DNA of 64,000 bases from Crocinitomicaceae bacterium. Its GTDB lineage: Bacteria > Bacteroidota > Bacteroidia > Flavobacteriales_D > Crocinitomicaceae. The position numbers were made by a program, and so were the translations under genes. Of this stretch, positions 4,351 to 60,110 are shown one piece after another. The number at the start of each line of letters is the position of its first letter. The stretch's first letter is position 1. Under the pieces are notes generated by a model. It made no database searches and was not told where the DNA came from. It was given only the letters and a program-made list of their open reading frames with translations. The stretch covers positions 248,001 to 312,000 of the forward strand of contig JAQWHI010000018.1 in assembly GCA_029249445.1 (NCBI GenBank). Direction: 5' to 3'.

Positions 4351-5337
4351 TTAATTCTTCTTTTTCTTATTAATTCGAATACCAGCAACCAATCGTAGCA
4401 GGTGGTAGTTGTGACTGATCTTCATTTCTTTGAATGAAGTAGATTTTAGGTCGAACTCACTTGTAAACCAAATGAAATAATTTGGTTTTGAATATCCAGC
4501 AATAAATCGAAGGTCCAAGCGCGGAGCCAATCCCAAAAATCCTCTGGTAATGGCACCTGTTGTATAAAATTTTGATTGTATTACACCTCCAAGTCCGCCG
4601 AATGCAGCCAGTTGCCAATTCCCCTTGCGAAAAGCATAAGCCAGACCCGGAACCAAGCCAACATCCATTGCGGATATCGTGCGTGCGAATGAGCGCGTCT
4701 GACTGGAATCGATTAGTGCATCTGGAGTTAATCTTCCATTTTCATTCGCGATGGTGAAATAATTAATAGTTCCTTTAACATACCACGTACCCATCGACTT
4801 ATTGAAATCTCCAACCTGCCCGAGTACGGATTGCATTTTAAAGTTCTTTGAATTGAGGTACCAAGAATTTACGGAGAGATTTGTGGAGCGAATTCCGGGG
4901 ATATAAGCATTGGGATTTAGTGCATTTAGTGTGTCGTTCCAATGGTATGCATTTTTGATCACGAATCCTTTGTAGGTGCGAAAATCAAAATCCCAAAATG
5001 TCTTTTTTACAGTAAATCTCAGTCCGAGGTCTTGAATGTCTACGTTCCCATAATTTTTTACCGATCTCAAAGTCCCCGGCAAGCCAATTCCCAATCGCAA
5101 AGAAAACCATTTGTAAGCCATGCCAAGTCCGAGAACAAATTTCTGATTGTGTCTGAACTTTAGTTTGGTTTGTTCATCTATAAAATCGTCTTTAAAATTG
5201 AACGGTGCCGATCCAAATCCCAGGTCAGAGTACAATACAATCTTATCTTTATATAGGTTGTAAGAAAGTGAGTCGTCTGTGTGAGCAGATAAAGAAGACG
5301 CAACAAGCAGAAAAAAGAATAATACAGTAGCTTTCAC
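4351..5337 (-). CDS. DUF4421 family outer-membrane barrel protein
   Basis: This 328-residue protein has a signal peptide (about residues 1-18, ending SLSAHTDD). Alternating hydrophobic/polar strands typical of an outer-membrane beta-barrel follow, including LGMAYKWFSLRLGIGLPG, the usual DUF4421 signature area. The tail is basic (INKKKKN). The start codon is GTG at 5337. A perfect TAAATTTG box ends only four bases upstream of it, so the mRNA may be leaderless. The gene is convergent with the operon at 3898-4344 and divergent from the methyltransferase at 5491. The function of DUF4421 is not known. Confidence 0.7.
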   Translation of the reverse strand: MKATVLFFFLLVASSLSAHTDDSLSYNLYKDKIVLYSDLGFGSAPFNFKDDFIDEQTKLKFRHNQKFVLGLGMAYKWFSLRLGIGLPGTLRSVKNYGNVDIQDLGLRFTVKKTFWDFDFRTYKGFVIKNAYHWNDTLNALNPNAYIPGIRSTNLSVNSWYLNSKNFKMQSVLGQVGDFNKSMGTWYVKGTINYFTIANENGRLTPDALIDSSQTRSFARTISAMDVGLVPGLAYAFRKGNWQLAAFGGLGGVIQSKFYTTGAITRGFLGLAPRLDLRFIAGYSKPNYFIWFTSEFDLKSTSFKEMKISHNYHLLRLVAGIRINKKKKN

Positions 5338-5341
5338 GTCA

Positions 5342-5349
5342 CAAATTTA
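5342..5349 (-). promoter_or_regulatory. -7 box of DUF4421 gene, four bases before the start
   Basis: The minus strand reads TAAATTTG, a perfect Bacteroidota -7 consensus (TAnnTTTG). Only four bases separate it from the GTG start at 5337. No clear -33 TTG is visible. Confidence 0.6.
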
Positions 5350-5379
5350 ATGATTCCACTTGTTTTTATGTTCTAGTTC

Positions 5380-5440
5380 ATCGGTGTCTGCCTTTTTTTT
5401 TGAAAAAATAATAGAAATCTATTTGGAGTGGGACACCGAT
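5380..5440. repeat. 9-base inverted repeat in a divergent intergenic region
   Basis: ATCGGTGTC at 5380-5388 and its exact complement GACACCGAT at 5432-5440 are separated by 43 AT-rich bases. They lie between the divergent DUF4421 gene and the methyltransferase gene. They could be paired operator half-sites or a long-loop hairpin. AGGAGG follows directly at 5441. Confidence 0.4.
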
Positions 5441-5490
5441 AGGAGGTAAAAGCGATGGTTTTTCTTACTTTTACTGTGATTATTGAAATT

Positions 5491-6267
5491 ATGAAGCAAC
5501 TTTACAAGTTTTTACTGAACAAACTGCCTCGGCCTTTGTTAATTCGCATTAGTTATGTGTTCAAATTTTTCGCTCCTATTTTTTACAAGGGCAACAATGT
5601 AGAGTGCACTGTTTGTGGTAAGTCTTTTCGAAAATTTTTATCGTACGGCTCTGATACTGCGCACCGTGAAAACGTGCTTTGTCCTTATGATTTAACATTG
5701 GAGCGTCACCGTTTGATGTGGACGTATTTGAAGGAGCATTCAAACTTTTTTGATGCTGATAAAACTATAGATGTGCTACACATTGCGCCGGAGCAATGCT
5801 TTCATAAGTTGTTTAAAGCACAAGAGAACCTCAATTACCTAACTGGAGATTTGGTTTCTCCGATTGCAGATATTCACTTTGATTTGCACAAGATTCCTTT
5901 GGACGACAACAAATTCGATGTCCTTTTTTGTAATCATGTCTTGGAGCATGTTGAGGACGCAATGCAATGCATGAGAGAATTACACCGCGTAATGAAACCA
6001 GGAGGATGGGGAATTATGCAAGTACCTCAGGATTTTAGCCGTTCGGAAACGTATGAAGACCCGAGTATTACATCGCCTGAAGAGAGAGAAAAGCATTTCT
6101 GGCAGAAGGACCATGTACGTTTGTTCGGAATGGATTACCCGGATTGGCTTGAAACTGCCGGTTTTGAAGTGGAAAGGTTTGATGTGAATGCCCATATGAG
6201 TCCTGAGCAAGTAAATCGCTTTAGAATAAATCCAAAGGAAATACTTTACATCGCCAGAAAGGTCTAA
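5491..6267 (+). CDS. Class I SAM-dependent methyltransferase
   Basis: The product is about 258 residues with the chosen ATG at 5491. A knuckle-like CTVCGKSFRKFL lies near residue 33, followed by a shortened SAM-binding fold. HIAPE takes the place of the usual glycine-rich motif I, and FCNHVLEHVEDA is the typical motif II. A MHRVMKPGG-type motif III area (LHRVMKPGGWG) follows. This is the Methyltransf_11 type, and the acceptor is unknown. An alternative ATG at 5455 has a strong AGGAGG eight bases ahead, which is rare here, but a near-consensus -7 box (TACTTTTA, 5466-5473) would exclude that start. The stop is immediately followed by the peroxidase gene. Confidence 0.75.
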   Translation: MKQLYKFLLNKLPRPLLIRISYVFKFFAPIFYKGNNVECTVCGKSFRKFLSYGSDTAHRENVLCPYDLTLERHRLMWTYLKEHSNFFDADKTIDVLHIAPEQCFHKLFKAQENLNYLTGDLVSPIADIHFDLHKIPLDDNKFDVLFCNHVLEHVEDAMQCMRELHRVMKPGGWGIMQVPQDFSRSETYEDPSITSPEEREKHFWQKDHVRLFGMDYPDWLETAGFEVERFDVNAHMSPEQVNRFRINPKEILYIARKV

Positions 6268-7248
6268 ATGCAGCGAACTCTGAATAAATATTGTTTTTTC
6301 ATTTTTGCATCCATAGTCATTTTTGTTTTTTTGCGTTGTTCTGGCTCAGCGTCGTGTGATAGCTGCTCGATCAAGGAGTTGACACAAGAAGAAAAACAAG
6401 AACTTCAGGCAGCACTCGGAAGAAATTTCTTTTTTGACAAACGATTTTCCAAAGACAATTCTATCTCTTGTTCAAGTTGTCATGTTCCAGAAAAAGCCTT
6501 TACAGATGGAAAATCACTGTCTCTTGGAGTAGGAGAGAGGGTCGGTTTTCGAAACGCTCCCACACTCTTGAATGTTAGAGATGCATCGACATTTATGTTC
6601 GATGCTGAAATTACCAGTTTAGAGCAACAAGCAATCGTTCCAATTCAAGACCATGCTGAGATGGATATGCGTATGGGGGATTTGGTTGAGAAGCTGAATA
6701 AAGATGTCCATTATGTTGATGCGGCGTTTCGCCTATATGGTCAGCCGCTTGATGCTTATGTCATCACACGAGCCCTTGCTGCTTTTGAACAAACCTTGAT
6801 TTCGGTAGACTCGCGGTTTGATCAGTTTTATGCATCACAAGATTCTAGTGTGTTGAATGCCAATGAACTGGCCGGATGGGAAGTATTCAAAAAACTCGAT
6901 TGTATTTCTTGTCATCAATTGCCTCATTTTACCGACTACAAAGCCCATACAACTCAAATGAGTTTTTATGAAAATGATTTGGGTCGTTTCCGTGTATCAG
7001 GGCAATCCAAAGATGTAGGAGCTTTTAGAACTCCATCTTTACGAAATATTGAGCTGACTGCACCCTACAAACACGACGGATCCGAGTTTGACTTAACACG
7101 TTTGGTTTCGCTTCACAGATTCGGAAATAAAGACGGAACGATTGCAATTCCAAAGGTGGATTATGAGCGCTTACAAAATGAAACTGAATTGATTGTTTCT
7201 TTTCTAGGTTCCTTAACGGATACGTCTTATCTGACTGCATTTCCCTAA
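6268..7248 (+). CDS. Di-haem cytochrome c peroxidase / MauG family protein
   Basis: This 326-residue exported protein has an N-terminal hydrophobic segment (about residues 8-24) followed by a cysteine-rich stretch that may be a lipoprotein or disulfide region. Two haem c motifs are visible: CSSCH near residue 68 and CISCH near residue 212. The family arrangement FRTPSLRN and APYKHDGS follows. These enzymes reduce hydrogen peroxide with electrons from cytochrome c, or in the MauG branch modify proteins, in the periplasm. The ATG directly abuts the stop of the methyltransferase gene (no gap), so the two are co-transcribed. Whether they work together is unknown. Confidence 0.85.
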   Translation: MQRTLNKYCFFIFASIVIFVFLRCSGSASCDSCSIKELTQEEKQELQAALGRNFFFDKRFSKDNSISCSSCHVPEKAFTDGKSLSLGVGERVGFRNAPTLLNVRDASTFMFDAEITSLEQQAIVPIQDHAEMDMRMGDLVEKLNKDVHYVDAAFRLYGQPLDAYVITRALAAFEQTLISVDSRFDQFYASQDSSVLNANELAGWEVFKKLDCISCHQLPHFTDYKAHTTQMSFYENDLGRFRVSGQSKDVGAFRTPSLRNIELTAPYKHDGSEFDLTRLVSLHRFGNKDGTIAIPKVDYERLQNETELIVSFLGSLTDTSYLTAFP

Positions 7249-7375
7249 CTGCTTTTCTTTTTTCAAATCCGTCTCTAATGAATTACTGTTTTGGATTGAC
7301 TTGCGATGCTTTAGCAATATATCGTAAGTTATTTCGTTTGTAGTGTAACCAAAAGATTTATTAACTGTTATACAT

Positions 7376-7402
7376 GTGCATGCATCCTGCAAGAGTATGC
7401 AC
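7376..7402. promoter_or_regulatory. Imperfect inverted repeat upstream of the sigma factor gene
   Basis: GTGCATGC at 7376-7383 and GTATGCAC at 7395-7402 pair at seven of eight positions around an 11-base loop. The repeat ends 24 bases before the ATG at 7427. It may be an operator or a 5' leader hairpin controlling the sigma factor. Confidence 0.3.
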
Positions 7403-7426
7403 AACTAGAACTATAAAACCAGAAAC

Positions 7427-7993
7427 ATGGAAGTGAACCCAGTTTACCACCAAGACAGCGTGCGTCTTAATGATGAGATGTTGTTGATCAATAAGGCAAA
7501 GGGTGATCCGGAGCGATTCGGACCTTTGTACAGGAAGTATCATGAGCAGATATTTCGTTATGTCCATCAACGGATGGATGATGAGGATTTGGCATTTGAT
7601 GTCACCTCGCAAGTTTTTATGAAAGCACTGATTAATTTGCACAAGTATGAGTATCGAGGGGTTCCTTTCTCATCGTGGTTGTATCGAATTGCAAAGAGTG
7701 AACTTTATCAGGCATTTAGAGACCGAAAGGGAAGACGAACTGTAAATGTGGAAAGTATGCATCTTTTCTGCATTATTGAAGATTTTGAAGAAGACGACAA
7801 TTCGCACAACAGGCAACGCTTGTTTAATTGTTTGTCTTTGCTTCGAGAGAAAGATTTGCAATTGATTGAGATGCGGTACTTTGAAAAACGCTCTTATCGA
7901 GAGATGGGAGAAATTATTGAAATTACTGAGAATACGGCCAAGGTCAGAACTTTTAGGGCTTTGGAACGATTGAGGAAACTATTTATGAAATAA
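7427..7993 (+). CDS. ECF-type RNA polymerase sigma factor
   Basis: This 188-residue protein has sigma-70 region 2 (about residues 20-95, with GPLYRKYHEQIFRYV and the -10 recognition helix FSSWLYRIAKSELYQAFRDR). Region 4 (about residues 130-186) contains IEMRYFEKRSYREMGEII and a helix-turn-helix TENTAKVRTFRALERL. There is no region 3, as expected for the extracytoplasmic function group. It redirects RNA polymerase to a special promoter set. The gene is followed nine bases later by a small membrane protein, the usual place of an anti-sigma factor. The 178 bases upstream contain an inverted repeat at 7376-7402. Confidence 0.85.
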   Translation: MEVNPVYHQDSVRLNDEMLLINKAKGDPERFGPLYRKYHEQIFRYVHQRMDDEDLAFDVTSQVFMKALINLHKYEYRGVPFSSWLYRIAKSELYQAFRDRKGRRTVNVESMHLFCIIEDFEEDDNSHNRQRLFNCLSLLREKDLQLIEMRYFEKRSYREMGEIIEITENTAKVRTFRALERLRKLFMK

Positions 7994-8002
7994 TAATTAA
8001 AA

Positions 8003-8305
8003 ATGGAGAAGATTAAAACCACTTTAGATCGTCCCTCTTTGAGTTCAGGATATATCCGTTCAAAACAGGATTTTAAGCGGGTAGAGCTGGAATATAAAAA
8101 ACTTAAACCTCCCTTGTACTCGAGGTTTTGGTTTTATGGAACAGTTGGAGTGTCGGTTATTGCTCTTTTGCTGTGTGCTGCGAAAATCACAAATTTCGAT
8201 ACAGAAAGTGACAGAAATGGAGAACGTAAAAATGACATTGCTGCAAAAATAAAGACAAGTAATCCATTGGCATTTGAAGTCAAAAACCAAAAGGAGGTAG
8301 AATAA
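8003..8305 (+). CDS. Small single-span membrane protein, candidate anti-sigma partner
   Basis: The product is 100 residues: about 45 basic cytoplasmic residues, one membrane segment (about residues 47-66, GTVGVSVIALLLCAAKI) and a short polar tail. It lies nine bases after the ECF sigma factor gene and is surely co-transcribed with it. No zinc-binding HxxxCxxC motif of the ZAS anti-sigma type is present, and I recognise no family. The position suggests a minimal membrane anti-sigma factor, which is inference. The following 238 bases hold no gene and a weak GC-rich imperfect hairpin near 8396-8445. Confidence 0.5.
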   Translation: MEKIKTTLDRPSLSSGYIRSKQDFKRVELEYKKLKPPLYSRFWFYGTVGVSVIALLLCAAKITNFDTESDRNGERKNDIAAKIKTSNPLAFEVKNQKEVE

Positions 8306-8543
8306 ACCAAAGCTGATCCGAACGATATCAAATCGCAATTTATAGCGAAAAATTAGATTTGATTTTGATTCCAGATCGTTAAATATTCAAACCTCAACCG
8401 GTCGCTTCAATGAGAAGTTTCGACGCTGTAAGCGGTTCGGTATGACTCAAAATGCATTGAATTTCATTGAAAAGTTGTTTTTATTAAAAATCATCTCTCT
8501 TTTTTGGTGTACCAATACAATATAAACCTAAATTCTTTACACG

Positions 8544-9487
8544 ATGAAGAAATCTATAATGCTATTACTTCTCATAGGAGTCTCAAATGCATTCGCGCAA
8601 CACACAAACTTTAACTCTCAAAAAAATTGGTCGCTCAACAAGAAAGAAATTTTTTTCGGGCTTGGTGCTACTCAGTTCTTAGGTGATCTTGGAGGTCAAG
8701 ATCAAGCGGGATCTGATTACAACCTTAGAGATATTGATTTACCAGCAACCTCTTTCGCAAGTATGGTTTGCTACCGTTATCGATTCAGACCTCATTGGGC
8801 AACATCTACAGTTTTGAATGTGGCCATGGTCAGCGGAGACGATAAAAACACAAAAGATATCATCCGAAATTCAAGAAATCTCCACTTTCGCTCAATGATT
8901 ATTGAGTTACAGCAGCGCCTCGAGTTTATCGTTTTTTCCAACGAAAAAGTTGGAAACAGACACAACATCAATTCGCATAGAAGAAAATCAAGAGGGCGCA
9001 ATGAACAACTTTATGTTTTTTCTGGTGCTGGAATAAGTTATTTCAACCCAAAAGCGAAGTATAACGGAAAGTGGGTCGCATTGCGACCATTGAGCACAGA
9101 GGGACAGGTTTTTGGGAAAGCAGAAGGTGAAGTTTTGGGTCTAACTGCTACGATACCCTTTGGTCTAGGACTACGAATGGGATTGGGATCGTTTTGGAGA
9201 TTGGGTATTGAAGCCTCATACATTAAAACATTCACAGATTACATTGATGATGTGCACGGAAAGTACTTCGATCCTGCAATTTTAGCAAGTGAAATTGGTC
9301 CTGAAGCGGGTATCTCTCAAATCCAAGCACTCAAAATACATCTTGGTTTGCTCCAGGACAGCAAAGAGGTGATATTGAGAATGATGCGTATTTTTACCTC
9401 AACTTGACCCTAGCGCGTAATTTGACCTATAAAAACTATGCTAAACAAAGAAAAAAGAGTGTAAAACGAGGGAAATATAGGTTTTAA
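8544..9487 (+). pseudogene. DUF6089-like outer-membrane barrel protein gene, interrupted by a one-base frameshift
   Basis: The original frame gives 287 residues to a stop at 9405-9407: a signal peptide (about residues 1-18, ending NAFAQ), then barrel strands such as EIFFGLGATQFLGDLGG. After GPEA (codon GCG 9306-9308) the frame loses barrel character. Reading +1 from TAT at 9311 instead gives YLSNPST, WFAPGQQRGD, and a final aromatic strand DAYFYLNLTLARNL with a basic tail, stopping at 9485-9487. Adding one G to the GGG at 9308-9310 restores a continuous 314-residue protein. This may be a sequencing error in a G run or a true recent loss. The family is an outer-membrane protein of unknown role, often near sigma factor genes. 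Confidence 0.75.
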
Positions 9488-9518
9488 ACCAATTGTTAAT
9501 ATTTTTTTGAAAGATATC

Positions 9519-9544
9519 AATGAGGTGGCTTCGGTCGCCTCATT
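9519..9544. terminator. Hairpin with a UUCG tetraloop, possible terminator
   Basis: Arms 9519-9529 and 9534-9544 form an 11-base stem (two G-U pairs) closed by C(TTCG)G, an unusually stable tetraloop. It follows the barrel gene stop at 9487 and precedes the pyrD -7 box. No long T run follows, so termination is likely but not certain. Confidence 0.5.
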
Positions 9545-12214: not shown

Positions 12215-13009
12215 CTATTGAACTACGATTCGCTCGAATTGAGAGTGGCCTTCATTGAAAATTCGAAGCATATAAACACCTTTACTTCTCGATGTCAAAT
12301 CAAGGGTTGAGTTCGTGATCTTTTCGATACAAACTCCAGATGAAGTGTACAGTTCAGCGCAATCAAACCTACCTTTAATATGAACAAAGTCTGTTGCTGG
12401 GTTAGGGGAGACAGAAACCCATGAAACTTCAGGTGATTGCAAACCAACGGGATCATTTGTAACTACTGAAATGGAATCGATGTACAACTGAAATCCATCA
12501 TTGGTTCTGTTGACAAATGCAATGTGTACCGAATCATTGTTGAGCCCGGCTTGACTTAGATTTACTTCCCGGTAATTCCATTCAAACAATTCATCATTGA
12601 CATAGAGTAGGGTATCTGTGAAGCTTGTAAGTGCATTATCTGTTTTTGATGCAAGTACCATATAACTATCAGGATAGGAGGGGTCTTGAGATTTTGCATC
12701 CCAATATAAAATATTCCCGTAGTCACTGAGACCGATTTTTGGAGTAATTAGCCAACGGTCAGCCTGGCCAACTGGACTAAAAAAAGATGTGGAGCCAACG
12801 ATGGTATCTGACGTATTTGTTGGGTCAACCAATTCAATCCAAGCTGCTGTGTAGTTGCTGACTGCAGGAGCAGGAGTGAGGCCATCATTATCGATAACAG
12901 TAAAGTCGGTTGGAAGTCCATTTTGGAAATCTTCCGAATAGACAGTTGTCTGCCCAATAGAACAGAACGAAAAGAACGACAGTGTAAAGATGTAAATTGT
13001 TTTAGTCAT
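12215..13009 (-). CDS. T9SS type A secreted protein with choice-of-anchor/cleaved-adhesin domain
   Basis: This 264-residue protein has a signal peptide (residues 1-19, ending CSIGQ). A jelly-roll-like domain follows (about 22-175) that begins YSEDFQNGLP and contains AWIELVDPTN and RWLITPKI, typical of choice-of-anchor J / cleaved adhesin domains that bind carbohydrate or surfaces. The final 75 residues are a type A sorting domain: VSVSPNPATDFVHI, then KGVYMLRI, ending ERIVVQ. It is exported by Sec, then carried across the outer membrane by the type IX system and anchored or released. Its promoter (-7 at 13014-13021) overlaps the 3' end of the upstream gene. Confidence 0.85.
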   Translation of the reverse strand: MTKTIYIFTLSFFSFCSIGQTTVYSEDFQNGLPTDFTVIDNDGLTPAPAVSNYTAAWIELVDPTNTSDTIVGSTSFFSPVGQADRWLITPKIGLSDYGNILYWDAKSQDPSYPDSYMVLASKTDNALTSFTDTLLYVNDELFEWNYREVNLSQAGLNNDSVHIAFVNRTNDGFQLYIDSISVVTNDPVGLQSPEVSWVSVSPNPATDFVHIKGRFDCAELYTSSGVCIEKITNSTLDLTSRSKGVYMLRIFNEGHSQFERIVVQ

Positions 13010-13013: not shown

Positions 13014-13021
13014 CAAAATTA
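13014..13021 (-). promoter_or_regulatory. -7 box of the T9SS gene, four bases before ATG
   Basis: The minus strand reads TAATTTTG, a perfect -7 consensus, four bases from the ATG at 13009. TTG (-33) lies 16 bases upstream, at 13038-13040 on the plus strand, inside the end of the DUF4268 gene. A leaderless transcript is predicted. Confidence 0.65.
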
Positions 13022-13032: not shown

Positions 13033-13497
13033 TTATTCAACGAGGTTAATTAGAATATCTTTGAACTCTTGATAAAAGACATCAAAATGAATCAATTTGC
13101 TCTCTAGAAAAGTCTCAATAGCAGCATGGTCTTTTTTGTTGTAGAAATTCAATGTTGGTGCTTCCCAAACAATTCTTGAAACGGTTCTTCCATTGAATTG
13201 ATGGTCGCTCTCGTTCCATCCTGTAGCTTTGCCGATTTCAGTTTCCATAACGACTTTTAACTCTGTCATTTGCTCCCAAATGATCGATCTAATTCCATCA
13301 TCTTTCGGCTGAATATCAAAACAAAAGCGAACGCCTTTCGAATCTGCCTCGAGCCGAATGTATACATCCTTTACGTCGGAAGGATAGTTGATCCAATTGA
13401 TTCCCCGACCATTTGACGATTTGTGATTGCGCATTTTTTTTCGAAAGCGATCCCAAAATTCTGTATTTAATTGCTTCTGTTCTTCTCTAGAAAACAT
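13033..13497 (-). CDS. DUF4268 domain protein
   Basis: The product is 154 residues from ATG 13497 (MFSREEQKQLNTEFWDRF). The whole length matches the DUF4268 pattern: an N-terminal helix EEQKQLNTEFW, RGINWINYP, RFCFDIQPKDDGI in the middle and RIVWEAP further on. DUF4268 also occurs as the C-terminal half of larger restriction-like proteins, but stand-alone forms like this are common in flavobacteria and have no known activity. The in-frame extension to 13590 is rejected because a perfect -7 box ends five bases before ATG 13497. The gene is divergent from the rhodanese gene and shares a palindromic site with it. Confidence 0.75.
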   Translation of the reverse strand: MFSREEQKQLNTEFWDRFRKKMRNHKSSNGRGINWINYPSDVKDVYIRLEADSKGVRFCFDIQPKDDGIRSIIWEQMTELKVVMETEIGKATGWNESDHQFNGRTVSRIVWEAPTLNFYNKKDHAAIETFLESKLIHFDVFYQEFKDILINLVE

Positions 13498-13502: not shown

Positions 13503-13510
13503 CAAAGGTA
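13503..13510 (-). promoter_or_regulatory. -7 box of DUF4268 gene, five bases before ATG
   Basis: The minus strand reads TACCTTTG, five bases from the ATG at 13497. A TTG 15 bases further upstream could be the -33 element and lies within the palindrome at 13521-13536. Confidence 0.65.
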
Positions 13511-13581: not shown

Positions 13582-13956
13582 ATGAGGCAACTTATAGCTT
13601 TTGGATTAATACTTGGTTTGATGGCCTGCTCAACAGAGGCGCAAGAAAGTAGCACTCAATCAACTTACAGGATAATAACAGTTGATGAATTCAAAGAGAA
13701 AATGAACACTGAAAACGTTCAAATTATCGACGTTCGTACTTCACAAGAGTTTTTGCGAGGAACAATTTATGGAGCTATGCATATTGACGTATTGAATTCA
13801 AACTTTGAAAAAAAAATAAAAGAACTTGACCCAACTCGTCCGACCCTCGTTTTTTGTGCCAAAGGTTCACGAAGTGCAAAAGCAAGTGCAATAATGAAAG
13901 GTCTGTCGTTTGTTGAAATTTATGATTTATCTGGTGGATTTGCTGGATTTCGTTAA
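13582..13956 (+). CDS. Rhodanese-like domain lipoprotein
   Basis: The product is 124 residues from ATG 13582; the in-frame ATG at 13543 is excluded because the promoter would lie inside it. The lipoprotein signal is residues 1-15 (GLMACSTEA). A single rhodanese domain follows: VQIIDVRTSQEF, AMHIDVLN, and the active-site loop LVFCAKGSRS with C92 as the predicted sulfur-carrying cysteine. Rhodaneses move sulfane sulfur between thiosulfate or persulfides and thiophilic acceptors. This one should face the periplasm. The upstream palindrome suggests control by a CRP/FNR-family regulator. A strong terminator follows at 14008-14043. Confidence 0.85.
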   Translation: MRQLIAFGLILGLMACSTEAQESSTQSTYRIITVDEFKEKMNTENVQIIDVRTSQEFLRGTIYGAMHIDVLNSNFEKKIKELDPTRPTLVFCAKGSRSAKASAIMKGLSFVEIYDLSGGFAGFR

Positions 13957-20262: not shown

Positions 20263-20270
20263 TACCTTTG
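20263..20270 (+). promoter_or_regulatory. -7 box of small basic protein gene, five bases before ATG
   Basis: TACCTTTG, a perfect -7 consensus, ends five bases before the ATG at 20276. No clear TTG -33 is visible; TTTT lies at about the right distance. Confidence 0.5.
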
Positions 20271-20275: not shown

Positions 20276-20419
20276 ATGGCAAAACAAAAAAATACAGCAA
20301 ATAAGAAGAAGCACACACGGCTTTTGAATCAAAAGAAAGCTAAAAAACGAAATGCAAAGATTTTGTTGGCTGAGCGCTTGAAGGAAGTCATGCGCAAAGC
20401 AAAGGAATCAGAGGAGTAG
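20276..20419 (+). CDS. Small lysine-rich protein (47 residues)
   Basis: The product starts MAKQKNTANKKKHTRLLNQ and has 13 Lys and 4 Arg in 47 residues, with an amphipathic helix in the second half (ILLAERLKEVMRKAKE). Such a composition suggests nucleic-acid or ribosome binding, but no family is recognised. The ATG at 20276 is preferred over an in-frame one at 20237 because a perfect -7 box ends five bases before it. It ends one base before the convergent helicase gene, itself lysine-rich at its C-terminus. Confidence 0.55.
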   Translation: MAKQKNTANKKKHTRLLNQKKAKKRNAKILLAERLKEVMRKAKESEE

Positions 20420-32266: not shown

Positions 32267-33913
<1,647 letters not shown>

Positions 33914-44807: not shown

Positions 44808-44824
44808 AATTACTGTTATATTTG
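44796..44824 (+). promoter_or_regulatory. tRNA promoter: -33 TTG and -7 TATATTTG
   Basis: TTG at 44796-44798 and TATATTTG at 44817-44824 (perfect -7) are 18 bases apart, 19 bases before the mature tRNA 5' end. This is an internal control for the -7 motif used elsewhere in the window. Confidence 0.75.
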
Positions 44825-44843: not shown

Positions 44844-44917
44844 GGCGAGGTAGCTCAGTTGGTTAGAGCGCGGGATTCATAACCCCGAGGTCGGGAGTTC
44901 AAATCTCCCTCTCGCTA
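44844..44917 (+). tRNA. tRNA-Met (anticodon CAT)
   Basis: This is a 74-base cloverleaf. The acceptor stem is GGCGAGG with TCTCGCT (G-U at both ends), the D arm is GCTC/GAGC, the anticodon loop is TTCATAA, and the T arm is GGGAG-TTCAAAT-CTCCC. The discriminator is A. CCA is not encoded. The anticodon stem has an A31-C39 mismatch. Elongator methionine is most likely; initiator or the TilS-modified isoleucine tRNA cannot be excluded from sequence alone. Confidence 0.9.
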
Positions 44918-44948
44918 CTCCCGAAAACACTGGGTTTTCGATAAAAAT

Positions 44949-52402: not shown

Positions 52403-52410
52403 TATCTTTG
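52403..52410 (+). promoter_or_regulatory. -7 box four bases before the BatA-like gene ATG
   Basis: TATCTTTG is a perfect -7 consensus and ends four bases before the ATG at 52415. TTG at 52383-52385 lies 17 bases upstream as -33. This is the best-formed leaderless-type promoter on the plus strand. Confidence 0.7.
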
Positions 52411-52414
52411 AAAT

Positions 52415-54442
52415 ATGAAGTTTTTGTACCCTCAATTCCTATGGGCGCTCCTAGTGCTGGCGATTCCGATCATCATTCACTTATTTAATTTTAAAAAGTA
52501 CAAAACTCTCTATTTCTCTAGCCTAAGCTTTATAAAGCATGTAGATCAGAAAACAAGATCTACACAACGACTAAAACATCTATTGATTCTTGCCATGCGT
52601 CTTCTGGCATTTATATTTATAGTGATTGCATTTGCGCAACCATATTTCCCCACGGAAAAGGAAGGTTTGGATTCCAAAAAATCAATTCTCTGCTTTTATA
52701 TCGACAATTCGTTCTCCATGCAGGCGCACGGGCCGGAGGGTGAATTGTTGTCTGAAGCGCGAGAGAAAGTGAAGGATATTATTGAGTCATCTGCAATGGA
52801 TACTCGATTTTTAATAGGTACAAATGAAATGTCAGGGCGTGAAGAGCGCCTACTTAATCGTAGGCAGGCATTTGAAAAAATTGATGAGATTCAATTGTGT
52901 CCTCTTCCACGAAGTTTATCGAAGGTTCTTGATTGGCAAATGGAAGTTTTAAAAGACCTTCGAGCCGAAACCAAAACTCGAGTAAATCACTTTATTTTTA
53001 GTGATTTTCAAAGGGCTGGTGTTGAAGAAATTAATCCATCCAAAGACAATACTACTTATTTCCCAACACGCTTGATTCCAGAAAAAAAAGGGAATGTTTG
53101 TATCGATTCAGTCTGGTTTACCTCACCAATTCATCAGATTGGAACAAGTAAAGAATTAAATATTCGAGTTGCCAACTTCCAAGATGAGTCAATTGAAAAC
53201 CTCGAACTTAAAATAAAAATTGAGTCCTATGAAAAAACAGTGTTTATTGATGTTCCAAGTCAGAGAACTACGACAACAGCTGTTTCTTTCACAGACAAAT
53301 CAGCTGGAGTTAAAAAAGGGGAAATCAATGTAGTTGATGAGCATGTTCTTTTTGATGACACCTATTATATATCTTACGAAGTTGAGGAACATAGCAATGT
53401 ATTTATTATAGACGGAGAGGATGCGATTACCGGCCTACATATCGTTTATGAAATAAATGACTTTTATAATACTCAAATAAAAAAGAGCACAGAGGTCACT
53501 AAAGAAGACTTTAAACAACAAGACATCGTAATTATTAATGGGGTGAATACGATTTCTTCAGGGTTGGGAATGTATTTAAATGAATTCATGAGCACAGGCG
53601 GTTCAGTAACACTATTTCCTGGGAAAACACCTAACTTAAAGGCTTGGAATGTTTTACTTTCGAAAAATCAGCTTCCTCTTCTTGGGGAAACGGTTCGTTC
53701 TGGAAATAGAATAAAAACATTGAATTATGCCGATCCATTTTTTGATGGGGTTTTTGAGTCAAAACCGAAAGATTTGAATTTACCAAGTGTGTCTTCGACC
53801 TTCCGAGCAATCAAATCAAATATACGTTCGACGGACTTAATCATCCTACAAAATGGGTTGCCCCTACTGTCCTACTGTCAATCAAAAGGAAATGCTTTTA
53901 TGTTTTACAGTTCAATACATGAAGACTTCGGGAATTTTTCTCGGGATGCTCTTTTTACGACTATTTTGCTGAGATCAGCAGAATTATCAAAAAGAAAGCA
54001 GCCCCTTGCCATTGATATTGGTAGTGATGCACAATTTCCACTATTTAAAAAAAATGATTCAAAAAATGCAATACATCTAAAAGGAAATGGGCTTGATTTT
54101 ATTCCGCAAATCAATGAAATTGGCGGTGTTAAGTACCTTACAATTAATAAGATGGATAATTTCACGCAACTACTAGCAGGTAACTTTTTGATTGCAAGTA
54201 ACAAAATACTCGGATCGATCAGTTTGAATTACAATCGCAGTGAGTCAAAATTAAATTATTACAGTCCAAAAGAAGTGCAGAAGATGTTCGCCGGGACTGA
54301 ATTTGAGTACAATGAGATTAGCAGCAAAAGTGCTTTATCAACAGAAAATATTGGCAAACCATTTTCGTATTGGAAAATTTGTATTGTTTTAACGCTTATT
54401 TTTGTGCTTAGCGAAATGGTTTTGGTCCGAATATTTAAATAA
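52415..54442 (+). CDS. BatA-domain membrane protein (vWA-like)
   Basis: The product is 675 residues. The N-terminus is the aerotolerance-regulator (BatA) domain: MKFLYPQFLWALLVLAIPII, then HLFNFKKYK, then a second membrane segment (about 60-77, LLAFIFIVIAFAQPYF). A von Willebrand-like domain follows (about 90-210) with FYIDNSFSMQA, a DxSxS-type metal site reduced to DNSFS. Beta-rich periplasmic domains fill the middle, and a last membrane segment lies near 652-670. It may be an envelope stress or maturation factor. The next gene starts nine bases on and is part of the same operon. Confidence 0.82.
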   Translation: MKFLYPQFLWALLVLAIPIIIHLFNFKKYKTLYFSSLSFIKHVDQKTRSTQRLKHLLILAMRLLAFIFIVIAFAQPYFPTEKEGLDSKKSILCFYIDNSFSMQAHGPEGELLSEAREKVKDIIESSAMDTRFLIGTNEMSGREERLLNRRQAFEKIDEIQLCPLPRSLSKVLDWQMEVLKDLRAETKTRVNHFIFSDFQRAGVEEINPSKDNTTYFPTRLIPEKKGNVCIDSVWFTSPIHQIGTSKELNIRVANFQDESIENLELKIKIESYEKTVFIDVPSQRTTTTAVSFTDKSAGVKKGEINVVDEHVLFDDTYYISYEVEEHSNVFIIDGEDAITGLHIVYEINDFYNTQIKKSTEVTKEDFKQQDIVIINGVNTISSGLGMYLNEFMSTGGSVTLFPGKTPNLKAWNVLLSKNQLPLLGETVRSGNRIKTLNYADPFFDGVFESKPKDLNLPSVSSTFRAIKSNIRSTDLIILQNGLPLLSYCQSKGNAFMFYSSIHEDFGNFSRDALFTTILLRSAELSKRKQPLAIDIGSDAQFPLFKKNDSKNAIHLKGNGLDFIPQINEIGGVKYLTINKMDNFTQLLAGNFLIASNKILGSISLNYNRSESKLNYYSPKEVQKMFAGTEFEYNEISSKSALSTENIGKPFSYWKICIVLTLIFVLSEMVLVRIFK

Positions 54443-54451: not shown

Positions 54452-55708
54452 ATGAACATTCTTATCAAAAAGGCAAAAATTATCGACAAAAACTCCTCCT
54501 TTGACGGTAAGACAATGGATTTACTTATCGAAGATGGTACAATTACTCAAATTGCTGAATCAATAGACAAAAAGGATCTTTCATGTATCGAAAAAGAGGG
54601 ACTCCACGTTTCTATGGGTTGGGTTGAATTAAAAGCTGATTTTTGCGATCCAGGAATGGAACATAAAGAAACCATAGGTTCGGGACTTAATGCAGCTGCA
54701 TTTGGTGGATATACTCATGTAGGAGTTCTACCAGTAACCGATCCAGTAGTCGACGGTAAAAGTCAAATACAATACATTCAACTCAAATCAAATGGGCATG
54801 TTTCAAGTGCACACCCGATTGGTGCATTGACAGTTGGTATGAATGGAGAAAACTTGTCAGAAATGTACGACATGTATCAAAATGGTGTGCAACTTTTTTC
54901 CGACGATATCAACCCTTGTCACTCAGGAATAATGTACCGTGCACTGCTCTATTCACGTAATTTTGGAGGAACAGTTGTTGGTTTTTCTAAAAATCATGAC
55001 ATCGCTGGCAAGGGGGTTGTAAACGAAGGAATTGCGTCCACTAAGACGGGACTCAAAGCTGACGCATCAATTGGAGAAATCATCGAGATTGAACGAAATA
55101 TCCGATTGGTCGAATACACCAATGGCAACTTACACTTAACAGGAGTATCAACTGCTGAAGGAGTAGATTTAATAAGAAAGGCAAAAGCCAAAGGATTCAA
55201 TGTTACAGCAGATGTTCATGCAGTCAACTTAATTTACAACGAGGAGGCAGTACTCGGATTTGACACAAATTTCAAAGTTTTACCTCCATTGCGCTTTGAA
55301 AATGATCGCAAAGCGCTCTGGAAAGGTCTGAAAGATGGTACAATTGATACAATTGTAACTGACCATCGTCCTCACAATAAAGAAGAGAAAGATATAGAGT
55401 TCGATTTGGCTGCATATGGAACAATCGGCCTCCAGACAAATTACGCCTCACTTAACATTGCAGATGAGTTCGAACTCGGGTCTGTAATTAATGCTTTAGC
55501 GCACAATTCGAGAACTATCTTAGGTCTTGATCAACAGTCGATTGAAATTGGAACAACTGCAGATTTGACACTTTTTCAACCCGAAAAAGAATGGAGATTT
55601 AAGAACGACGATATCTTTTCGAGCACACATAACACGCCATATGTTGAAAAACTGATGAAGGGGTTCGTTGTTGGAGTCATTAATAACGGTAAATTAGTGT
55701 CCAAATAA
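54452..55708 (+). CDS. Dihydroorotase-like protein lacking metal ligands
   Basis: The product is 418 residues. The overall sequence is amidohydrolase/dihydroorotase: an N-terminal beta-sandwich, DPGMEHKETI and TDHRPHNKEEK. The zinc-binding HxH (usually DLHVHLREPG) has become ELKADFCDPG, the second His pair (EVTPHH) is DVHAVN, and the HVST histidine is GVST. So the normal binuclear metal centre seems absent. Such pseudo-enzymes occur beside real dihydroorotase in several bacteria and can be structural partners of aspartate transcarbamoylase. It shares a promoter with the BatA-like gene. Confidence 0.82.
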   Translation: MNILIKKAKIIDKNSSFDGKTMDLLIEDGTITQIAESIDKKDLSCIEKEGLHVSMGWVELKADFCDPGMEHKETIGSGLNAAAFGGYTHVGVLPVTDPVVDGKSQIQYIQLKSNGHVSSAHPIGALTVGMNGENLSEMYDMYQNGVQLFSDDINPCHSGIMYRALLYSRNFGGTVVGFSKNHDIAGKGVVNEGIASTKTGLKADASIGEIIEIERNIRLVEYTNGNLHLTGVSTAEGVDLIRKAKAKGFNVTADVHAVNLIYNEEAVLGFDTNFKVLPPLRFENDRKALWKGLKDGTIDTIVTDHRPHNKEEKDIEFDLAAYGTIGLQTNYASLNIADEFELGSVINALAHNSRTILGLDQQSIEIGTTADLTLFQPEKEWRFKNDDIFSSTHNTPYVEKLMKGFVVGVINNGKLVSK

Positions 55709-55713
55709 GGTGA

Positions 55714-56268
55714 ATGATTTCCAAACGTAGCTTCATAAAACAATTTTTCAAACACAGACAAATGGTTGGCTCCATTCGGCCTAGCTCAAGGTTTCTTGGC
55801 GAGAAAATGCTAGAAAATATTGATTTTATACGTTCAAAATCACTCATAGAACTCGGTCCTGGATGTGGCGTATTCACAGACATGATTATTGATCGAATGG
55901 CTCCAGATGCATCATTATTGGTTTTTGAACTGAATGATGAATTTTACGATTCATTAAACACGAGAATTAATGATCCGCGTGTGACCATCATTCATGACTC
56001 TGCTGAACATTTAGAGAAGTATATACATGATGGAAAGAAAATAGATGCTGTTGTTTCATCACTGCCACTAATGGTATTTCCAGAAACTGTTAGAGACAAT
56101 GTTGTTAATGTGTCACACAAGGTTCTGAAATCAGCTGGAATTTACATGCAGTTTCAGTATTCGCTCCAATCAAAGAAACTATTGAAGGCTATCTTTAATG
56201 ATGTCTCAATCAAGTTCACAACAAAAAACTTTCCACCGGCATTTATATATACATGTCGGAAAAAGTAA
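55714..56268 (+). CDS. SAM-dependent methyltransferase (phospholipid/rRNA dimethylase-like)
   Basis: The product is 184 residues. SAM-binding motif I is IELGPGCGVFTDMI (about residues 44-57), motif II is the acidic FELNDEF, and SSLPLMVF takes the place of the NPPY-like motif IV. The beginning FFKHRQMVGSIRPSSRFL is typical of PmtA-like phospholipid N-methyltransferases and their relatives. Substrate not proven. The start ATG at 55714 follows the DHOase-like stop by five bases, and its end overlaps the pseudouridine synthase start by 16 bases, so the three are translated from one message. Confidence 0.75.
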   Translation: MISKRSFIKQFFKHRQMVGSIRPSSRFLGEKMLENIDFIRSKSLIELGPGCGVFTDMIIDRMAPDASLLVFELNDEFYDSLNTRINDPRVTIIHDSAEHLEKYIHDGKKIDAVVSSLPLMVFPETVRDNVVNVSHKVLKSAGIYMQFQYSLQSKKLLKAIFNDVSIKFTTKNFPPAFIYTCRKK

Positions 56269-56831
56269 CAAATAGAGATTACTTCGCACTCTATAAGCCC
56301 TATGGATTTCTCTGTCAATTTACGGGTGAAGAAAGCGATCAGTTACTTGGTGATTTGTATACTTTTCCCAAAGATGTTTATTCTATCGGTCGTTTGGATA
56401 AAGACAGTGAAGGCCTACTTTTATTAACAAACGACAATCAATACAAAACACAACTCCTTGATCCAAAAAATCATAAATACAAAACCTATTGGGTACAAGT
56501 AGAAGGATCAATAACAAAAACAGCAGTTGAAAAATTATGTTCTGGAACAATCCAAATCAATCACAAAGGAAAGAAACACAAAGTCGACCAAGCGCTCTGC
56601 AAAACAATAGCACCACCAGACCTTCCTGAGCGAGTTCCTTCGATACGGACAAGGCTTCACATCCCGACGTCATGGATTGAATTGAAGATCACAGAAGGAA
56701 AAAATAGACAGGTGAGAAAAATGACTGCTGCAATCGGTTTTCCAACCCTCCGCTTGATACGCACTGCAATGGGATCAGTTCAGCTTCAAGATCTTAAACC
56801 AGGTGAGGTTCGCAGAATTTTTCCAACTTAG
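56253..56831 (+). CDS. Pseudouridine synthase, RluE/RsuA family
   Basis: The product is 192 residues. It has the catalytic motif IGRLDKDSEGLLLLTND with the catalytic Asp, then PKNHKYKTYWVQVEG, and the C-terminal TEGKNRQVRKMTAAIG. No S4 domain precedes it, as in RluE, which modifies 23S rRNA (U2457 in E. coli numbering). The start MSEKVTNRDYFALYKPYGF overlaps the methyltransferase gene by 16 bases. It is convergent with the TonB-type receptor gene, with eight bases between and no terminator visible. Confidence 0.9.
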   Translation: MSEKVTNRDYFALYKPYGFLCQFTGEESDQLLGDLYTFPKDVYSIGRLDKDSEGLLLLTNDNQYKTQLLDPKNHKYKTYWVQVEGSITKTAVEKLCSGTIQINHKGKKHKVDQALCKTIAPPDLPERVPSIRTRLHIPTSWIELKITEGKNRQVRKMTAAIGFPTLRLIRTAMGSVQLQDLKPGEVRRIFPT

Positions 56832-56839
56832 AGAATCAA

Positions 56840-59266
56840 TTAAAGCCCCATGCCTCCTTGGGAGGTAGGTTTTAGTTTCTTGCTACTTTCGTATTTCCCA
56901 AACTTGAATGACGCAGTAATGAAAAAACGTCTTGTCAACCACTTGTATTGACTTACCTGTCGAACCCCCTCTTGAATCAACTCCAAATCGAAACCCCGTG
57001 TATCAAAAATATCTGTGACCCTCGTTCCAATTGATAATTTCTTATTCAACAATCGTTTTTCAAATGAAATATCAATTCCTGTCCGAGGTTGTACAATACC
57101 TTGGGGAGATATACGCGGTGCACGATAAGATGCATTTATCTGAACCGTCGCAGTTTTATCCCAGAAGTCAGCACTACCGATGTATTTAAATCCCCAATTG
57201 ACTCCACTATTGTTCCAATCCGTCTCAGGATCTGAATTTGTATACACAATGTAATTGCCATTAAACGAGATGGTGTTTTTCCACCATTTGAACGGTTTAT
57301 AAATCAAGACAAGTTCTGAACCTGTACTCTCGCTATTATCAATGTTTCCATAGGTTACAATGGCTGTATTGTTTTCTCTATAAAACTTAACTCGATTTAT
57401 AACATCGCGTGTCCTCCTATGAAACATACTGAATGTTGCAATTAATTTCTTTGACGTGTAAGAGTAACTAAAATCGTATGAGTCGATATACTCTGGTTCC
57501 AAATTTGGATTTCCACTTCTCAGATTGAAAGGATCTGCATAGCTCGTAAACGGATTCAGTTGTCTTGCGCGCGGGCGATTGATTCGCTTACTATAACTCA
57601 GACCCAACTCGGTTTTATCATTGAATTTGTACTTAAGATGTCCTGATGGGAAAACGTTTCTATAGGTGTTAGTGTAGTTATTCGAGTCTCCAATAAGAAC
57701 CGGATCTTGCTGTGCGAATTCTCCACGGAGTCCAATCTGGTACTTAAAATTTCCTATCTCCTGGCCAAAAATACCATACGCACTATATATTGCACCATTG
57801 TATTGGTAATCAAAGTTCGCAACAGTATCCTCTAAATATTGACCGCTCAAGGTATCTAAAGTTTGTGAGCTTGTAGAAAGGATTTCTGAGTTCAAAATTG
57901 CCTTTGATCCGGTTTCGATGCGTGCATTAATTTCTTTTAAAATATAACTAAAGTCAATTTGAGCTGTCGTAAGTGAACTAACCTGATCATTTCTCAACTG
58001 CTGATATAACGGTTGTTGTGAAGTAGGACTTCCATTGGCACTCAAATAATTTTCAATATAGAAACCTTCTATTGCCTTCTCTCCGATTGATTGATAAGCA
58101 ACGACTGACAACTCTCCTTTACTCTCTTTTAATTTCCATCCATAATTTAAATTCAAGTCCAAATTTTTATTCCTGCGTGGGTCACGAGACAATCGATCCC
58201 AACGATCAACAATTGCTTTGTTTCCGTCGAACAATTGGTTGCTTAAATCTCCTGTTCGCTCACGAAAACCATTTATAAATGTTCCTGAAAAACCAATTGT
58301 ATGATTGTTATTGATGAAATAATCGGTTCCGAGAACAAATGTATTCCCCTCTTTAAAATCAGTACCAATTCTATCCTGTTCAAGAACAATCGTACTGTCT
58401 GAAACTACCTCACGTTCGAGCGTGCTTAGGTAATTTCGAAATCCACGAAACTGGTTGTACGAATAATTTGTATAAAGATTAAATCGTTCGTTACGATAGC
58501 TTAATGCCACATTCGCTTCAAATTGCTGACCGGATGTAAATGATACACCACCGAGCGTTGAGGAGACTATTCCATTAAAGCCCTTTAATTTATTTTTTTT
58601 CATCACTATATTGATTATACCAGAGGTCCCATCGGGGTCGTATTTTGCTGAGGGATTCGTTACAACTTCAATACGTTGAATTGAATTTGCTGGAAGGGCA
58701 TCTAATAGGTTCTGTCCATCTCCTAGTACGAGGCCACTTGGGCGGCCATCAATCAAAATCGTGACATTCCCATCACCTCTTAAGCTAATATTTCCGTTCT
58801 GATCAATATCAATAGAGGGAATATTGTTTAAAACATCATTGACAGTGCCTCCTCTTACTGCGATATCGTCCTGCACATTGTATATCTTTTTGTCGATACC
58901 AGCTTTTAAAACATCCAATGAACCGGTCGCAACAATATCATCAAGTTGAAGGGATTCACTAATTTCAAGTTTTACAATCCCGAGATCTCGACTCTGTCCA
59001 TCCTCAAAAAGAAGTGGATTGAGTGTAAAGCTTGAAAAATTGGTAAATGAAATTTTCAGGAAGTAGTTTCCATTGTTTATAGCTCGTAGTTTGAAAGTAC
59101 CATCTTGATTGGTGTAAATTCCAGCAACCACTGTTGAATCTTTAGAGTCAAACAATCGGACAGATGCAAATTCAAGGGGGCCATCAGCATCCATAACTCT
59201 ACCTGAGATACTTTGAGCATGTAGGTTTAAAGATGACAAAAGAAGAAATATGAGGAGAAAACGCAT
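56840..59266 (-). CDS. TonB-dependent receptor-like outer membrane protein
   Basis: The product is 808 residues. It has a signal peptide (about 1-17, LNLHAQS), a carboxypeptidase-regulatory-like beta-sandwich (about 20-110, ISGRVMDADGPLEFASVRL) and a plug domain (about 120-225) with VQDDIAVRGGTVNDVLNNIP and RGDGNVTILIDGRPSG. The large barrel ends RRFFITASFKFGKYESSKK. This is the outer membrane beta-barrel family of Bacteroidota that may import a nutrient or secrete a signal. No SusD gene is adjacent. The OsmC gene ends three bases upstream on the same strand, so it may be in the marR/osmC transcript. Confidence 0.88.
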   Translation of the reverse strand: MRFLLIFLLLSSLNLHAQSISGRVMDADGPLEFASVRLFDSKDSTVVAGIYTNQDGTFKLRAINNGNYFLKISFTNFSSFTLNPLLFEDGQSRDLGIVKLEISESLQLDDIVATGSLDVLKAGIDKKIYNVQDDIAVRGGTVNDVLNNIPSIDIDQNGNISLRGDGNVTILIDGRPSGLVLGDGQNLLDALPANSIQRIEVVTNPSAKYDPDGTSGIINIVMKKNKLKGFNGIVSSTLGGVSFTSGQQFEANVALSYRNERFNLYTNYSYNQFRGFRNYLSTLEREVVSDSTIVLEQDRIGTDFKEGNTFVLGTDYFINNNHTIGFSGTFINGFRERTGDLSNQLFDGNKAIVDRWDRLSRDPRRNKNLDLNLNYGWKLKESKGELSVVAYQSIGEKAIEGFYIENYLSANGSPTSQQPLYQQLRNDQVSSLTTAQIDFSYILKEINARIETGSKAILNSEILSTSSQTLDTLSGQYLEDTVANFDYQYNGAIYSAYGIFGQEIGNFKYQIGLRGEFAQQDPVLIGDSNNYTNTYRNVFPSGHLKYKFNDKTELGLSYSKRINRPRARQLNPFTSYADPFNLRSGNPNLEPEYIDSYDFSYSYTSKKLIATFSMFHRRTRDVINRVKFYRENNTAIVTYGNIDNSESTGSELVLIYKPFKWWKNTISFNGNYIVYTNSDPETDWNNSGVNWGFKYIGSADFWDKTATVQINASYRAPRISPQGIVQPRTGIDISFEKRLLNKKLSIGTRVTDIFDTRGFDLELIQEGVRQVSQYKWLTRRFFITASFKFGKYESSKKLKPTSQGGMGL

Positions 59267-59269
59267 GTG

Positions 59270-59656
59270 CTATAAGAGCTTAAATTCAATTGAGTTTTTT
59301 AACATCTTGACAATAGGGCAACGTTCCGAAATAAGAATCAAACGCTGCCTCTGTTCTTCTGAGAGTGAACCTTCAAATTGAACTGTTTTATTGATTTGGG
59401 CTTTGTCTTTATTATCAATGAGTTGAAGTTCAATAAACACATTCTGTAAATCCCAGTTTTTCCGTTTTGCATACATTTTCATTGTAATCAGCTTACAGCT
59501 AATCAATGACGTTAACAAAAGTTCAGTAGGTGTCGGCCCTAAATCCAATCCGCCGTCGGAGATTGACTGATCTGCCAACAAATAGTGCAAACGCGAGGAT
59601 GTCTCTACCGTATAGGCTTCTTTTAACTTACCACTAACTTTAACCTCTTGATGCAT
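59270..59656 (-). CDS. OsmC family protein
   Basis: The product is 128 residues. It has an OsmC/Ohr fold with DLGPTPTELLLTSLISCKLITM holding the first redox Cys, and SERCPIVKML holding the second. The layout fits the YhfA/OsmC-like branch more than true Ohr. These proteins reduce organic hydroperoxides using the two cysteines. It overlaps the end of the marR gene by 17 bases, so translation is coupled, and the regulator probably senses the same stress. It is followed three bases later by the receptor gene. Confidence 0.88.
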   Translation of the reverse strand: MHQEVKVSGKLKEAYTVETSSRLHYLLADQSISDGGLDLGPTPTELLLTSLISCKLITMKMYAKRKNWDLQNVFIELQLIDNKDKAQINKTVQFEGSLSEEQRQRLILISERCPIVKMLKNSIEFKLL

Positions 59657-60098
59657 TTCTTATTTTATCGAGTAGTTCGCTTAATTGATCTGCATCCTCA
59701 TCAGTTATTGGTGGGACTAAGATATTTTCTTGTTCTTTAAGAGCAGCATCGATAGTTTTTAAAAGTTCTAGGCCAGAAGCTGTTATTTTTACATATATAA
59801 CCCTACCATCCGATGCACATCTCTCACGAGAAATCAAATTCTTCGCTATGAGTTTGTCCATTAATCGAGTAGTATTTGGCGACTTCTCTATCATTCGGTC
59901 CTTTACCGTGTTTACCGCGATAGCCTCCGCTGCCCCTCTTAGAATCCGCAATATATTGAATTGTGGCATGGACAAATCAAACTGAGACATAAAAACCCCC
60001 TGTTTTGTACCGATCAAATTAGATGTGTATCGGAGATTTATAGCTGCTCTGCTCTGCGGACTGGTGAACTTAGTTTGAATTTCTTCATTAATATTCAT
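59640..60098 (-). CDS. MarR family transcriptional regulator
   Basis: The product is 152 residues. The winged helix-turn-helix covers about residues 40-105: DLSMPQFNILRILRG, NTVKDRMIEKSPNTTRLMD, and the wing ISRERCASDGRVIYVKIT. The N-terminal and C-terminal helices form the dimer region. There is no N-terminal reactive Cys as in OhrR; one Cys sits in the wing. It heads the marR-osmC(-receptor) transcript. A 10-base palindrome lies between the -33 and -7 of its own promoter, and its -7 box ends four bases before the ATG. Confidence 0.9.
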   Translation of the reverse strand: MNINEEIQTKFTSPQSRAAINLRYTSNLIGTKQGVFMSQFDLSMPQFNILRILRGAAEAIAVNTVKDRMIEKSPNTTRLMDKLIAKNLISRERCASDGRVIYVKITASGLELLKTIDAALKEQENILVPPITDEDADQLSELLDKIRNASRG

Positions 60099-60102
60099 GG
60101 CA

Positions 60103-60110
60103 CAAATATA
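60103..60110 (-). promoter_or_regulatory. -7 box four bases before the marR ATG
   Basis: The minus strand reads TATATTTG, a perfect -7 consensus, four bases from the ATG at 60098. TTG (-33) lies 19 bases upstream. A leaderless message is predicted. Confidence 0.7.

Follow-up and report, generated by a model that had tools for sequence, protein, structure and literature searches.

Six genes in the window, the whole 64,000-nucleotide stretch of DNA analysed, carry a TAnnTTTG box at so short a distance from the start codon that their messages may begin at the codon itself. The first-pass annotation had placed six perfect boxes 4–5 bases before start codons and direct reading located all of them at those coordinates, four with a gap (the number of bases between box and start codon) of 4 and two with a gap of 5 (Table 1). 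The near matches it had listed, with gaps of 3–5, are likewise present, each with a single mismatch. The box corresponds to the TAnnTTTG -7 element found upstream of genes in housekeeping (sigma-ABfr) promoters. Pfam assignments agree with the claim that the genes concerned are mostly unrelated, as they encode a DUF4421 protein, a Cleaved_Adhesin/Por_Secre_tail protein, a DUF4268 protein, a MarR regulator, a BatA and a 47-residue basic protein, the last of which had no match in a Pfam scan. The N-terminus that follows the GTG start of the DUF4421 protein is signal-peptide-like as judged by eye. The tRNA-Met gene, put forward as a control, has the box at the distance reported for it, and the tRNA was the sole Rfam match in the 64-kb window at gathering scores. 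A leadered control is provided by a gene that we take, from its sequence, to be pyrG.

Table 1. Boxes, genes and associated sites. Positions refer to the window unless preceded by a locus label; gap, bases between box and start codon.
Feature	Sequence	Position	Strand	Remark
DUF4421 gene (PF14391)		4351-5337	-	GTG start
-7 box, DUF4421 gene	TAAATTTG	5342-5349	-	gap 4 to GTG 5337
Secreted protein gene		12215-13009	-	Cleaved_Adhesin and Por_Secre_tail domains
-7 box, secreted protein gene	TAATTTTG	13014-13021	-	gap 4 to ATG 13009
DUF4268 gene (PF14088)		13033-13497	-	Pfam
-7 box, DUF4268 gene	TACCTTTG	13503-13510	-	gap 5 to ATG 13497
-7 box, 47-aa ORF	TACCTTTG	20263-20270	+	gap 5 to ATG 20276
47-aa basic protein		20276-20419	+	ORF
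-7 box, BatA-like gene	TATCTTTG	52403-52410	+	gap 4 to ATG 52415
BatA-like gene, predicted leaderless		52415-54442	+	PF07584
MarR-family regulator gene, predicted leaderless		59640-60098	-	PF01047
-7 box, MarR gene	TATATTTG	60103-60110	-	gap 4 to ATG 60098
Palindrome (probable MarR operator)	TACCATGGTA	60113-60122	-	2 bases upstream of MarR -7 box
TTG of -33-like element		60130-60132	-	spacer 19 to MarR -7 box
Near-match box	TGAATTTG	11492		gap 4
Near-match box	TATATTTA	16624		gap 5
Near-match box	TACATTTA	26927		gap 3
-7 box, leadered control (presumably pyrG)		32272-32279	+	26 bases before ATG 32306
-7 box, tRNA control		44817-44824	+	19 bases before tRNA-Met 44844-44918
Further palindrome site	TACCATGGTA	2965		inside ORF
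Further palindrome site	TACCATGGTA	L019:3173-3182		upstream of YceI gene
Further palindrome site	TACCATGGTA	L025:19520-19529		
BatA loci at gap 7		L214, L218, L219, L220, L222, L227, L228, L229		
Sample genes fitting nucleotide metabolism		L026:6133-6774, L031:16384-16932, L038:16111-17253, L019:13516-14088		box at gap 4–5

With high confidence, the six boxes are best read as promoters for the housekeeping sigma factor of Bacteroidota that give rise to leaderless messages. The -7 element, TAnnTTTG, would occupy about -12 to -5 and RNA polymerase would start 4–5 bases after it, so that transcription would begin on the initial base of the start codon or on the one preceding it. With its AUG or GUG at or almost at the 5' end, the resulting mRNA would have to be translated with no contacts upstream of the codon, by the leaderless route, in which initiation takes place on an intact 70S ribosome or on a 30S subunit preloaded with initiator tRNA. 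The preloaded 30S subunit is described as such a route in PMC10783764. Both the 5' ends at the start codon and the route of translation are predicted from the boxes, their spacing and their conservation. In the mapping of Flavobacterium johnsoniae transcripts the box lies at -12 to -5 and many promoters have 4 or 5 nt between box and start site (PMC6847099); this spacing would place the start site of the present promoters at the start codon. The claim that the message starts at or beside the start codon thus appears well grounded, since a spacing peak is found in 800 kb outside the window, the gap is conserved in most BatA and MarR orthologues and the F. johnsoniae spacing agrees.

The box per se is not enriched in the window, where 79 copies are found against 69.4 ± 8.5 in shuffles. 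Its placement is beyond chance, as had been estimated roughly, because five boxes lie 4–5 bases before called starts, a number not attained in any of 5000 circular shifts of the boxes (mean 0.076, maximum 2). This count is based on 57 called starts, with the BatA start, missed by the crude caller, added by hand; the caller ignores ORFs shorter than 60 residues and the 47-residue gene, the weakest case of the six, is therefore left out. With any ATG in the window accepted, gaps 4 and 5 together account for 9 cases, whereas gaps 7–59 average 1.28 each (Poisson p = 0.0014), while ATG and GTG together give 10 against 1.94 per gap (p = 0.007).

A sharp genome-wide peak at 4–5 bases had been set as a check on the proposal, and such a peak was found in 800 kb of the genome. 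The draft genome comprises 2.33 Mb in 23 contigs, the window spanning 248001-312000 of contig C10. An 800-kb sample lying outside the window was taken from four contigs, and a crude caller based on codon usage (at least 60 residues) yielded 633 genes. A perfect box at gap 4–5 precedes 19 of these, compared with 14 at the twelve flanking gaps 0–3 and 6–13 (binomial p = 9e-9), the counts at gaps 0 to 13 being 1, 0, 1, 0, 12, 7, 2, 3, 3, 0, 2, 0, 2 and 0. A separate broad group of 96 perfect boxes occupies gaps 14–45. From the flanking gaps about 2 of the 19 cases would be due to chance, leaving about 17 after subtraction of the background. Boxes with one mismatch also peak at gap 4, with 26 cases against 1–15 at each of the other gaps from 0 to 39 (689 genes, window included), and as a rough estimate the gap 4–5 arrangement applies to 5–6% of called genes in all. 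A count of all ATGs in the first 400 kb, with no ORF filter, displays no peak; the peak emerges when ATGs are limited to ORFs of at least 80 residues or to called starts. ORFs of at least 80 residues with the box at gap 4–5 in the 800 kb start with ATG (24), GTG (6) or TTG (4), and relative to neighbouring gaps ATG is far above, GTG slightly above and TTG not above. The start codons of leaderless-type genes are thus mostly AUG, as expected for leaderless mRNA. No significant excess of such genes was seen in the window, where 4 of 56 called genes have the box at gap 4–5 compared with 19 of 633 in the sample (Fisher p = 0.11). A function shared by the 19 sample genes was also sought and rejected, as the Pfam scan gave mixed families with no single theme, including DnaB, URO-D, tRNA_Me_trans, PurK, formyl transferase and ABC transporters; one gene had no Pfam match and another had matches only below the curated cut-off. 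Four of the 19 fit nucleotide metabolism by Pfam (phosphoribosyl transferases, PurK and formyl transferase; Table 1). At L007:6630-9003 divergent genes for a DnaB-type helicase and a Methyltransf_30 protein both have the box at gap 4, with starts about 116 bases apart.

Conservation of the gap was followed for BatA, MarR, DUF4421, DUF4268 and pyrG, each searched in 40 genomes of the family (own included), with 28–30 loci examined for each. In each locus the closest in-frame ATG within 15 codons, or failing that the closest GTG, served as the start, and loci lacking one were dropped (7 of 28 for DUF4421, 1 of 30 for MarR). Among the 30 BatA loci a perfect box lies at gap 4 in 13 and at gap 5 in 7; the remaining ten comprise four with a one-mismatch box at gap 4–5 and six with neither. 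Similarly, 19 of the 29 scorable MarR loci have a perfect box at gap 4, the others displaying gap 7 (three), gaps of 17 or more (six) or only a one-mismatch box at gap 4 (one). Orthologues align from residue 1 in 30/30 loci for BatA and in 21/30 for MarR. In the leadered control pyrG the box is found 23–30 bases before the ATG in 29/30 loci, and the spread of gaps differs between BatA and pyrG (Levene p = 0.003, a value computed on orthologues, which are not independent). Where the promoter is kept, BatA and MarR hold it at a nearly constant distance from the start codon, and pyrG does so less strictly. The pyrG leader is itself fairly constant in the family and could hold regulation.

The arrangement is poorly conserved at the DUF4421, DUF4268 and 47-residue genes, where few relatives or none share it. 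A perfect box at gap 4–5 occurs in 3/30 DUF4268 loci (own included) and 18 have no box in 60 bases; the ORF is open upstream to a TTG at 13590, but the 30 loci have ATG or GTG at the position of 13497. For DUF4421, 3 of the 21 scorable loci (28 examined) have gap 4–5 and five more gap 6, and the GTG start with gap 4 is also found in a locus of the same genus (L102). Relatives of the 47-residue gene were found in 2 of 39 other family genomes, neither with gap 4–5: the one of the same genus (L334) has no box in the 60 bases upstream and the other carries TAACTTTG at gap 7.

The BatA search was extended to a contig database, from which the best 80 of at least 594 matching stretches were taken. 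A perfect box at gap 4–6 is present in 37 of these 80 and a one-mismatch box at gap 4–5 in 4, whereas 14 have a box only at 7 or more and 25 have none; four loci lacking an ATG at the aligned place (L231, L237, L242 and L268) are kept in the count. The 25 top loci of the 80 (L189-L213) all have the perfect box at gap 4–6, and their labels are mostly Flavobacteriales or Crocinitomicaceae metagenome bins, with Fluviicola and Lishizhenia also present and some labels surely wrong (Kuenenia). Eight of the same best 80 have a gap of exactly 7, three of them Pedobacter and the rest Flavobacteriales and others (Table 1). Six of these eight end in TTA before the ATG, perhaps reflecting leaders of 1–3 nt.

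The base at which transcription would begin can be compared with that of leadered genes. In 102 leadered genes of the genome the frequency of A is highest at the fifth base after the box (0.54) and next highest at base 6 (0.48), in agreement with a gap of 4, where base 5 is the A of the ATG. The base at -1 is C or T in 34 of the 37 BatA loci with a box at gap 4–6, which are related sequences drawn from the best 80 of at least 594, and in the genome's own leaderless-type set the same preference is not significant (16/23 vs 37/72, p = 0.15). Among the MarR promoters, a TTG at spacer 19 is found in 12 of the 17 that were selected for having the palindrome, the box and gap 4. No peak of TTG at a spacer of about 19 appears for BatA (19 and 27 promoters), nor in 23 leaderless-type or 100 leadered genes of the genome. 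A -33 element for the whole leaderless class was thus not found and is clear only at MarR; it was also weak in F. johnsoniae.

The MarR promoter includes a conserved palindrome, the feature expected of autoregulation, in 23/30 loci. It appears there as TACCNNGGTA, and in 19 of the 23 the perfect box starts 12 bases from the start of the palindrome. In the window it occurs as TACCATGGTA at 60113-60122 and is the probable MarR operator. As it lies between the -33-like TTG and the -7 box, MarR probably represses its own leaderless promoter, a reading based on position and conservation. The sequence is found at four places in the whole genome (Table 1), including one upstream of a YceI gene that is itself of leaderless type, with a box at gap 4. 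MarR autoregulation with YceI as second target is likely. The sites at MarR, YceI and L025 would delimit a probable small MarR regulon. In MarR-type autoregulation the regulator's gene has a palindromic site inside its own promoter. The present promoter shares this organization and differs in being of leaderless type, with its putative operator located in the spacer between -33 and -7.

Not all loci agree with the leaderless reading, as 10/30 BatA and 10/29 MarR loci have no perfect box at gap 4–5 and one of the six genes, DUF4421, starts with GTG. These genes might instead have very short leaders, with transcription starting 1–3 bases upstream of the codon, or a later start codon might be used, possibilities that we regard as unlikely while giving them real weight. 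Gaps of 6–7 do occur, the gap being 6 in five DUF4421 loci, 7 in three MarR loci and exactly 7 in eight BatA loci (the latter among the best 80 of at least 594), and start-site choice at the box varies by a base in F. johnsoniae (PMC6847099). Against short leaders, the genome peak is sharp at gap 4–5, while the use of a later codon is opposed by the alignment of orthologues from residue 1 at BatA and MarR.

It is very improbable that TAnnTTTG is a translation signal in RNA, with transcription coming from further upstream. The same box is found 14–45 bases before many leadered genes and 19 before the tRNA, and its distance to the MarR palindrome is fixed, with a TTG at spacer 19; nothing direct speaks for such a signal, the nearest point being that Bacteroidota initiation uses bases upstream of the start (PMC6847099). 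Chance placement of a common A+T-rich 8-mer might be suspected from the lack of over-representation in the window, from the unfiltered all-ATG count in 400 kb and from the poorly conserved 47-residue and DUF4268 cases, and single genes may still owe their box to it. For the whole set chance is ruled out by the shift test, the sample histogram with its peak at called genes and the BatA and MarR orthologues, and we give it scarcely any credence.

Leaderless-type promoters, as the boxes at gap 4–5 are best read, are used unevenly between lineages. Among called genes the ratio of boxes at gap 4–5 to those at leadered gaps 14–45 is 19 to 96 in the own sample, 15 to 31 in a genome of another family of the class (G206), 9 to 10 in a family of the same phylum (f33, 290 kb of four genomes) and 2 to 50 in a family of the same order (f13, 400 kb of two genomes), the twelve flanking gaps holding 14, 15, 6 and 6 boxes, respectively. 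Counts over whole genomes with any ATG are a rough guide only, because gaps 4 and 9 differ in reading-frame phase, and the called-gene histograms are preferred. By this guide gap 4 exceeds gap 9 in 44/60 genomes of the order, including 10/11 of the own family, 10/10 of f9, 2/6 of f13 and 4/10 of f3, and two contrasting families among 148 genomes of the phylum give 8/8 (f33) and 1/18 (f32). On balance we lean slightly towards the view that leaderless initiation in Bacteroidota is a selected, gene-specific state, held at BatA and MarR through most of the family, whose use by lineages would range from almost none to about half of the boxes near gene starts.

Leaderless mRNAs are a kind already known and a minority class in the phylum. 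In Flavobacterium psychrophilum 5.5% of the mRNAs mapped for 890 CDSs are leaderless (PMC9723704), in Bacteroides thetaiotaomicron about 3.7% of 5' UTRs are shorter than 10 nt (PMC7366714), and in F. johnsoniae, where 241/434 candidates were kept as probable promoters, 87% of the transcripts predicted to have such a promoter carry leaders of more than 10 nt, leaving 13% by subtraction; the conclusion drawn for F. johnsoniae by its authors is that leadered transcripts are the majority (PMC6847099). The present genes resemble these in the housekeeping box, the start-site spacing and the minority status. In contrast, they are recognized here from sequence alone, with their conservation among orthologues, the palindrome at MarR and the difference between lineages as additions. 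Leaderless genes detected by a Pribnow-like signal, which likewise have a -10-like box a short and constant distance upstream of the start codon, are abundant in Actinobacteria and Deinococcus-Thermus; that 2011 survey reported the signal in 1/37 Bacteroidetes/Chlorobi genomes (2.4% of genes), and its authors note that Pribnow-like promoters alone were detectable and Bacteroidetes perhaps underestimated (PMC3160421). A 2017 study suggested that Pribnow boxes of leaderless mRNAs might underlie the A+T-rich biases before Bacteroidetes starts, citing earlier reports in which the leaderless fraction is high, yet finds the bias not simply so explained (PMC5397173). In 2024 leaderless mRNAs were linked with some Flavobacteriia whose 16S rRNA lacks CCUCC (PMC10783764); a search for the 16S rRNA 3' end with two motifs, which would tell whether the anti-Shine-Dalgarno sequence is kept, gave no match in the stretches searched. 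Literature searches on leaderless genes in Crocinitomicaceae, on Bacteroidota start sites and on conserved leaderless genes in Bacteroidetes returned no papers, a weak indication of absence as subscription journals are mostly uncovered. As far as searched, conservation at particular genes and uneven use between lineages are less documented. The present analysis adds the conserved spacing at particular genes, the probable operator in one of these promoters and the differences between lineages.

In annotation the true start codon can usefully be recognized by a box 4–5 bases ahead of it. The phylum generally makes no use of Shine-Dalgarno pairing (PMC10783764), which bears on how Bacteroidota ribosomes find starts. 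Genes predicted to be leaderless through most of the family are natural test cases, with BatA and MarR to be compared with leadered neighbours for dependence on initiation factors or stress. Similarly, the translation factors of f13, which has almost no such genes, could be compared with those of f33, which has many in a small sample.
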